This document shows, one piece after another, positions 15,673 to 17,211 of a stretch of DNA of 64,000 bases; the stretch's first letter is position 1, and each line of letters starts with the position of its first letter. Source of the DNA: Dethiobacter alkaliphilus AHT 1 (lineage in GTDB: Bacteria > Bacillota > Dethiobacteria > Dethiobacterales > Dethiobacteraceae); assembly GCF_000174415.1 (NCBI RefSeq), contig NZ_ACJM01000001.1:62001-126000 (forward strand). Reading direction: 5' to 3'. The translations under genes and the position numbers were made by a program. A model generated the notes under the pieces. The model was given only the letters and a program-made list of their open reading frames with translations, did not search any database and had not been told where the DNA came from.

Positions 15673-15753
15673 CTAAATTATGTTCAAACCATTTTTTTCT
15701 GCATCCAGTAGAGTCCGTAGTTTAACCCGGGCCCGGTGGAGGCGGGATTTGAC
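15673..15753 (-). pseudogene. C-terminal remnant of an ECF sigma factor
   Basis: Read leftwards, 26 codons end at TAG 15673 and encode VKSRLHRARVKLRTLL plus a short tail. VKSRLHRAR is the canonical end of sigma region 4.2. The matching N-terminal fragment lies beyond the TnpB element at 17212-17332 in the same orientation. The middle, about 100 residues, is gone. Confidence 0.75.
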
Positions 15754-15819
15754 ATTCTTAGGGCAAGAAGTCTCCCGCCTCTAAGCCACCTTGCTCACTT
15801 TAGTGAGAGCGAAGGCGGG
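15739..15819 (+). other. Two mutually exclusive hairpins at the left end of the TnpB element
   Basis: GAGGCGGGA (15739-15747) can pair with TCCCGCCTC (15773-15781). CCCGCCT (15774-15780) can instead pair with AGGCGGG (15813-15819), enclosing CTCACT/AGTGAG. The first arm lies in the sigma relic, the others in the element. Confidence 0.6.
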
Positions 15820-15854
15820 ATATGAATTGCTTGCTTTTACCTCTCAATAAATAC

Positions 15855-15904
15855 TTGCCATCCGAACATTCGTTTGGTATAATTTAGGCGCAAACAAATG
15901 TTCG
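15855..15904 (+). promoter_or_regulatory. tnpB promoter bracketed by two LexA/SOS-type boxes
   Basis: TTGCCA (15855-15860), 17 bases and TATAAT (15878-15883) form the promoter. CGAACATTCGTTTG (15863-15876) fills the spacer, and CAAACAAATGTTCG (15891-15904) lies at the start point. Both match the Gram-positive LexA pattern CGAAC-N4-GTTYG, the second in reverse. Confidence 0.75.
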
Positions 15905-15976
15905 CAAGATACTAAGAAGTTGATGAGCACCTGTGAAAATAATTCAAAATTATATTGTAAGTCGAGGAGAAAAGCG

Positions 15977-17101
15977 ATGATAAAAGCTTTCAAGTATCGC
16001 CTCTATCCTAATAAAGAGCAAGATATATTACTGCAAAAAACATTTGGTTGTGTACGTTTTATCTACAACCAGATGCTTGCAAACCGTATGGCCGTCTATG
16101 AGCAGTACAGAGATAATAAAGAAGCTCTAAAACAACAGAAATATGCCCTGCCTGCAGATTATAAAAAGAGATATCCCTGGCTGAAAGAAGTAGACAGTCT
16201 GGCACTGGCTAACGCTCAACTCAATCTAAATGCAGCCTATAGAAACTTTTATCGAGACCCCTCAATAGGATTTCCAAACTTCAAAAGCAAACACAAAAGC
16301 AAAAAATCATACACAACAAACAATCAAAAGGGAACAATTCGATTGATTGACAGTAAAACGATACGACTGCCAAAACTAAAAAATGTCCATATCAAACTCC
16401 ACCGGCAGTTACCAAAAAATGCAGTAATAAAATCGGCAACTATTAGTCAAAAGGCAACAGGAAAGTATGAAATCTCTATCTTAGTTGAGTGGGAAGCGGC
16501 AATTAAGCCAGTTGCCCCTACAATAGAATCAACGATAGGTTTGGACTATTCTTCTGGGTCACTGTTTGTCGATAGCCAAGCAAGCAGTCCGGAATATCCA
16601 AAATTCTATCGTCTGGCAGAAGCCAGATTAAAAAAAGAACAGAGTAAATTATCAAGAAGAAAAAAGGGCAGCAAAAACAGAGAAAAGCAAAGACAAATTG
16701 TAGCCAAACTTCATGAAAAAGTAGTAAACCAGCGCAAAGACTTCCTGCATAACGTATCCAGAAAAATTGCAAACAATTATGACGCAGTTGTAATTGAAGA
16801 TCTGAACTTACAATACATGGCTCAGGGATTAAACCTGGCAAAATCAACAAACGATAACGGGTTTGGCATGCTGAAACGATTTCTGCAATATAAGCTGGCA
16901 GAGCAGGGTAAACAACTGATAACCATAGATAAATGGTACCCCTCAAGTAAGCTTTGCCATTGTTGCGGAGAAAAAAATAACCAGCTATCTCTAAGTGAAC
17001 GGACATGGACATGCCAACGATGTGGAACCACCTTAGATCGAGACGTAAACGCCGCCATCAATATAAAGCTTGAAGGATGCAGAATACTTGGTATTGCCTA
17101 G
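15977..17101 (+). CDS. tnpB: TnpB RNA-guided nuclease
   Basis: TnpB is the RuvC-type, RNA-guided DNA nuclease of IS200/IS605 elements and an ancestor of Cas12. The 374-residue protein starts MIKAFKYRLYPNKEQ with GAGGAG upstream of ATG 15977. The three RuvC acidic residues are visible: Asp in GLDYSSG (about 190), Glu in VIEDLNL (about 273) and Asp in DRDVNAAINI (about 356). The zinc ribbon is CHCCG...CQRCG (about 328-349). It therefore looks intact and catalytically competent. No transposase TnpA accompanies it. The upstream promoter carries two SOS-type boxes, suggesting DNA-damage control. Confidence 0.92.
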   Translation: MIKAFKYRLYPNKEQDILLQKTFGCVRFIYNQMLANRMAVYEQYRDNKEALKQQKYALPADYKKRYPWLKEVDSLALANAQLNLNAAYRNFYRDPSIGFPNFKSKHKSKKSYTTNNQKGTIRLIDSKTIRLPKLKNVHIKLHRQLPKNAVIKSATISQKATGKYEISILVEWEAAIKPVAPTIESTIGLDYSSGSLFVDSQASSPEYPKFYRLAEARLKKEQSKLSRRKKGSKNREKQRQIVAKLHEKVVNQRKDFLHNVSRKIANNYDAVVIEDLNLQYMAQGLNLAKSTNDNGFGMLKRFLQYKLAEQGKQLITIDKWYPSSKLCHCCGEKNNQLSLSERTWTCQRCGTTLDRDVNAAINIKLEGCRILGIA

Positions 17102-17211
17102 TGTGATAAGAACCGTTGGGCGAACGGGGATAGCTTGGTAATTATATCAGCACTAGCTGATACGTCCCAAGAAGCCCCCACCTCTTACAGGTGGTGGGAG
17201 TACGTCACAAG
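17040..17211 (+). ncRNA. Candidate omega RNA of the TnpB element
   Basis: In this family the guide RNA overlaps the 3' end of tnpB and extends to the right end. Here the non-coding part contains CCGTTGGGCGAACGG and the right-end stem near 17176-17203. The guide would start in flanking DNA at about 17212, i.e. sigma-factor sequence. The 5' limit is a guess. Confidence 0.5.

Follow-up and report, generated by a model that had tools for sequence, protein, structure and literature searches.

Two LexA-type boxes at the promoter of a tnpB gene in Dethiobacter alkaliphilus, and similar promoters among IS200/IS605-type elements

SOS-linked insertion sequences and a tnpB gene

The Cas12 nucleases are considered to descend from TnpB, and to our knowledge the signals that turn on natural tnpB genes are largely unknown. 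The transposases of IS10 and Tn5/IS50 are of the DDE type, and these elements have no RNA-guided nuclease. In Escherichia coli, transposition of IS10 is linked to the SOS response, a link disputed for Tn5/IS50 (reviewed in PMC13393415), and the rcr transposase genes of the IS91-like elements ISCR1, ISCR2 and ISCR8 are controlled by LexA (PMC13393415, 2026). Here we consider an element that differs from IS10 and Tn5/IS50 in coding for such a nuclease: a tnpA-less IS200/IS605-type (IS1341-like) element of Dethiobacter alkaliphilus AHT 1, located in a stretch of 64,000 nucleotides of contig NZ_ACJM01000001.1 (the window), whose tnpB gene has two LexA-type boxes at its promoter. The likeness to ISCR is that a LexA box overlaps the promoter of an insertion-sequence gene, predicting repression until DNA is damaged. 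ISCR, however, codes for a HUH transposase behind a CTGT-N8-ACAG box, as shown by gel shift and reporter, whereas the window tnpB codes for a predicted RNA-guided nuclease behind a box of the Gram-positive kind, and is known from sequence alone.

A closer relative by its protein is ISDra2 of Deinococcus radiodurans, whose TnpB is a homologue of the window TnpB. Irradiation stimulates its transposition (PMC2806898), and according to one proposal its TnpB cuts the donor joint left empty, repair then restoring the element (PMC8612924). ISDra2 differs in that tnpA is present and that stimulation is ascribed to the single-stranded substrate, not to raised tnpA expression; LexA control of its tnpB is not described in the ISDra2 work cited here. 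In the same phylum as the window, Clostridium difficile ribotype 027 provides an in silico LexA box before a transposase gene (PMC4234289): the site is distant (-217) and comes with no survey, and the text consulted does not name the transposase family. Transcripts of the 'IS605 OrfB family' were raised in carbadox-fed pigs with the SOS response unchanged (PMC5550749), so that this case is not counted as support. No paper linking TnpB with LexA or SOS was found, in a search made largely outside subscription journals. SOS control of insertion sequences is thus known (IS10, and ISCR since 2026), while a link with TnpB appears to be new, absence of reports not being proof.

Boxes in the host SOS regulon and at other tnpB genes

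The case for SOS control is read in the sequences: the operators, their placement in the promoter, a matching host regulon, recurrence at other tnpB genes and constraint on the box. The predicted sigma-70 promoter of tnpB, TTGCCA-17-TATAAT, agrees at 11 of 12 positions and includes an extended -10; of five matches in the region it scores best. A preliminary description had noted two LexA-type boxes around TATAAT, 28 bases apart centre to centre and with few mismatches to the Bacillus consensus, and had taken them as a sign of SOS control. The two boxes are present with that spacing (Table 1), and both match CGAACNNNNGTTYG exactly, being its only exact matches in the window; the operator consensus of the Gram-positive LexA type is CRAAC-N4-GTTYG / GAAC-N4-GTTC, and the LexA box of Actinomycetota resembles it. 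The proposed control gains computational support, as the same box and layout occur in the lexA region of the host and other tnpB genes are boxed.

Table 1. Features of the window tnpB element (positions within the window)
Feature	Position	Strand	Basis
IS200/IS605-type (IS1341-like) element, tnpA-less	15752..17208, approximate	+	homology with second copy, L017 and L099
Left-end hairpin, then ATGAATTG; apart from the boxes	15773..15820	+	DNA folding (z = -3.1); conserved in relatives
-35 hexamer TTGCCA	15855..15860	+	promoter prediction
LexA-type box 1, CGAACATTCGTTTG, inside the 17-bp promoter spacer	15863..15876	+	exact consensus match
-10 hexamer TATAAT	15878..15883	+	promoter prediction
LexA-type box 2, CAAACAAATGTTCG, over the predicted start point	15891..15904	+	exact consensus match
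Leader, with ribosome site GAGGAG at 15964-15969	15928..15976	+	homology judged by eye
tnpB, 374 aa, catalytic residues intact	15977..17101	+	domain, alignment and structure matches
3' region and right end, with hairpin at 17175-17198	17102..17208	+	99% identity between both copies

The lexA gene of the host (250.8 bits) adjoins a divergently oriented gene whose LysM product resembles YneA (52.5 bits, below the NCBIfam cut-off of 60), and the region between them carries CAAACACCCGTTCG. At the yneA-like promoter, CGTACACTTGTTCG (9/10) and CAAACAAGTGTTTG stand 28 bp apart around the -10 hexamer, and therefore the window tnpB promoter has the layout of a host SOS promoter, with the difference that the one serves a chromosomal stress gene and the other a mobile element. 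Seven further genomes with a box-bearing tnpB have a 28-bp pair at this position too. Boxes with 9 of 10 matches also precede host recA (GGAACAAATGTTTG) and recQ (AGAACATTTGTTCG); recA boxes occur in 11 of the 13 genomes examined, with 9 or 10 of 10 matches, and in most genomes with a boxed tnpB both lexA and recA carry similar boxes. In the genomes of a Bacilli tnpB family discussed below, the lexA and recA sites are 9-of-10 matches only.

The genome of the window contains two diverged copies of the element. In the second, located at C3, TnpB is 96% identical and both boxes are kept, the changes in box 1 being confined to its central four bases, while the stretch from box 2 to the ribosome site is shorter by 50 bp. 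In this copy (L012, C3:61389-62510) the left-end hairpin also lacks its outer half, yet the boxes are kept. Two elements of related genomes, L017 and L099, likewise retain the pair at unchanged distance. On these comparisons the boxes are part of the element and lie outside its end hairpin. A third tnpB in this genome, 38% identical, has CAAACACCTGTTCG directly upstream of TATAAT.

A survey of related tnpB genes, advocated in the preliminary description, extends the observation well beyond this genome. An exact box lies at most 120 bp upstream in 16 of 141 distinct tnpB regions, for none in 60 shuffles and none at 448 control open reading frames (ORFs; further reading frames from some of these loci). 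When counting starts from the beginning of the operon and GAAC-N4-GTTC is admitted, 40 of 162 IS200/IS605-type promoters, mostly from Bacillota, are boxed, for 0.43 expected from shuffling (maximum 3 in 200) and two with the reversed motif. By type, boxes are found at 32/86 tnpB genes without tnpA, 7/59 with intact tnpA and 1/17 with a tnpA remnant; the first figure is inflated by copies of one family, and promoters were sampled according to how similar their TnpB is to that of the window, so that lineages weigh more than counts.

Lineages can be followed on a tree of TnpB, where box presence needs 9-11 changes of state, gains and losses being indistinguishable. The position of the box varies with the clade: spacer and start point in the window type, spacer only in the Bacilli family and in L208 and L209, start point only in Thermincola and in SM3/SV3 Clostridia, and at or upstream of the -35 hexamer or in the spacer in L013 and in Lachnospiraceae; matches are weaker or placement less clear in L101, L156 and several Lachnospiraceae sites. 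Within the clade of the window TnpB, no box precedes tnpA in the members that have it intact (L019, L020, L021, L022, L027, L031), whereas three tnpA-less groups (window, Thermincola and SM3/SV3 types) are each boxed, at differing positions; thus loss of tnpA tends to be accompanied by a boxed promoter. This is no rule: L024 has neither tnpA nor box, and the copies with a tnpA remnant in L025 and, as a second copy, in L020 are unboxed. The C-terminal end of tnpA is retained between boxes and tnpB in L017 and L099, and a shorter piece of it in the Thermincola copies.

Constraint on the box is clearest in the Bacilli family, where an alignment of 16 entries (three of them stretches of one degraded copy; L253, with changed outer bases and a spacer one base longer, was set aside) has the ten columns of the box arms invariant and all four central columns variable. 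Mean pairwise difference is 0.34 in the central four bases against 0.06-0.09 in flanks and coding sequence. Across L249-L269, the box centre differs between copies about five times more than flanks or coding sequence.

The exact 14-mer occurs at none of 59 tnpA promoters, and GAAC-N4-GTTC at seven, mostly in Lachnospiraceae elements sharing GAACACTTGTTC. This sequence is common to tnpA-tnpB and tnpB elements of that family (L039 of Faecalicatena contorta, L050 and L064 of Blautia schinkii, and L042, L044, L052, L053, L059, L094), where it apparently forms the -35 region of the promoter (TTGTTC), so that predicted SOS control may extend there to the transposase. A second Lachnospiraceae sample had 2/18 boxed, plus two near matches, and the trait is therefore patchy in this family; of the 30 loci that surround the tnpA genes with the best scores, one only had an exact box anywhere.

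Competing explanations and a possible link to repair

We consider it very likely that the tnpB promoter is an SOS promoter, at which LexA would repress tnpB together with its guide RNA until DNA is damaged. Several observations weigh against this reading. About three quarters of the sampled promoters are unboxed, boxes were not found at phage-borne relatives of TnpB, and in one Bacilli genome (G315) the lexA homologue had no lexA box beside it. Genome-wide, the 13-mer GAACNNNNGTTYG shows no enrichment (32 sites, for 30 of a reversed control), and the argument therefore rests on promoter-specific counts. This last figure is what favours chance; almost no boxes arose in shuffles, with the reversed motif or at control ORFs, and boxes are kept among diverged copies. 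Chance, to which we give practically no credit, is refuted for the group by the counts and for the window element alone by its second copy: it is excluded through replication, not through the single site.

Another reading is that the boxes are paired arms by which the transposon end forms a structural hairpin, recognized as single strand, their likeness to LexA sites being accidental. The two boxes are inverted copies of each other, complementary at 13 of 14 positions, and as a single strand the DNA folds more stably than its shuffles do (z = -3.1 and -4.8). In L017, which counts against operators, the outermost base of each box has changed in such a way that the inverted repeat, and hence pairing, is preserved, as a hairpin also predicts. 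But the conserved end hairpin is found 40 bp upstream, and is kept in relatives with boxes, without boxes and with tnpA; a single box is the usual state among boxed relatives, where no box-pair hairpin can therefore exist; between copies, the arm centres show no covariation; and the same inverted pair stands at the host yneA-like promoter. The hairpin arms, which the preliminary description had named as what might undo its proposal, were rejected on box position and single-box relatives, and we deem this explanation highly improbable. Scarcely more probable is that the boxes are genuine operators of another repressor, for example of a phage or element type, with a LexA-like site. The palindrome CAAAC-N4-GTTTG, which is all that the Bacilli family has, is not unique to LexA, and the 9-of-10 sites at lexA and recA in those genomes leave some room for it; the same motif is however present at lexA, yneA-like and recA genes in most other genomes, and the element itself encodes no repressor.

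With SOS control retained as the preferred reading, the boxes at this promoter and at many tnpB genes of the same phylum suggest that TnpB is probably switched on by DNA damage. LexA bound to the spacer box and to the start-point box would keep the promoter closed; after damage, activated RecA would cause LexA to cleave itself and tnpB would be transcribed. As TnpB cuts its guide RNA out of its own mRNA (PMC10278001), one promoter could control both, the guide being made along with tnpB. TnpB would then cut matching sites devoid of the element, which would be copied back by recombination, a process that SOS also activates, in line with the proposal made for ISDra2. We infer binding of LexA, induction by damage and benefit to the element from this arrangement; upkeep of the element would be linked to repair by cutting timed to active recombination.

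Whether the link with repair goes that far is a separate matter. A tentative generalization, which we would call SOS-gated homing, is that IS200/IS605-type elements losing tnpA repeatedly gain LexA operators, nuclease and guide being released during RecA-dependent recombination, which would couple element retention (or a cutting role serving the host) to DNA repair. It is a real possibility, too, that LexA control is genuine and a mere lock on a costly nuclease, with no bearing on repair or retention: transposon genes are usually lowly expressed, and LexA widely represses mobile elements (PMC13393415). Against the lock, recurrence at tnpA-less tnpB promoters suggests, without proving, that timing is of benefit. 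For the question of what switches on tnpB, the recurrent operator points to the SOS response, an answer both concrete and open to testing. Were it true, RNA-guided nucleases would be joined to the DNA-damage network, the proposed recombination-based retention would become testable by mutating the 14-bp boxes, and DNA-damaging drugs might be expected to raise the activity of such elements.

The element and further boxed genes

By its domains (OrfB_IS605 and Cas12f1-like_TNB in Pfam) and RuvC residues, the product of the window tnpB is a TnpB and a predicted RNA-guided nuclease. Among nine relatives, D190, E274 and D356 (in our reading the RuvC triad) never vary, nor do four zinc-type cysteines, and the protein matches PDB 8bf8, a solved TnpB, along its length (1.7e-68). 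No intact tnpA was found ahead of the gene. The leader is homologous to the stretch of L017 and L099 that holds the final codons of the lost tnpA; a remnant is significant in L017 (1e-9) and L099 (3e-6), and not significant by itself in the window (0.13). Both limits of the element are approximate, the right one being taken from comparison of the two genomic copies. The right-end hairpin folds weakly better than shuffles (z = -1.9), and from the TnpB literature the 3' part of the guide RNA is expected in the region downstream of tnpB.

LexA-type boxes are also seen at REP-associated (Y1, PF01797-like) transposase genes of the window's genome: L002 1735 (C7:142234), L006 2029 (C6:60528) and L007 1503 (C7:66503), at 13, 116 and 112 nt upstream of the start, respectively. 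The first, checked by Pfam and NCBIfam (the two others were recognized by eye), has a perfect palindrome, CGAACATTTGTTCG. A gene for an XerC/XerD-like tyrosine recombinase, L004 2135 (C7:56634), displays TTGCAG-TG-CGAACATTTGTTTG-G-TATAAT, the layout of the window tnpB promoter.
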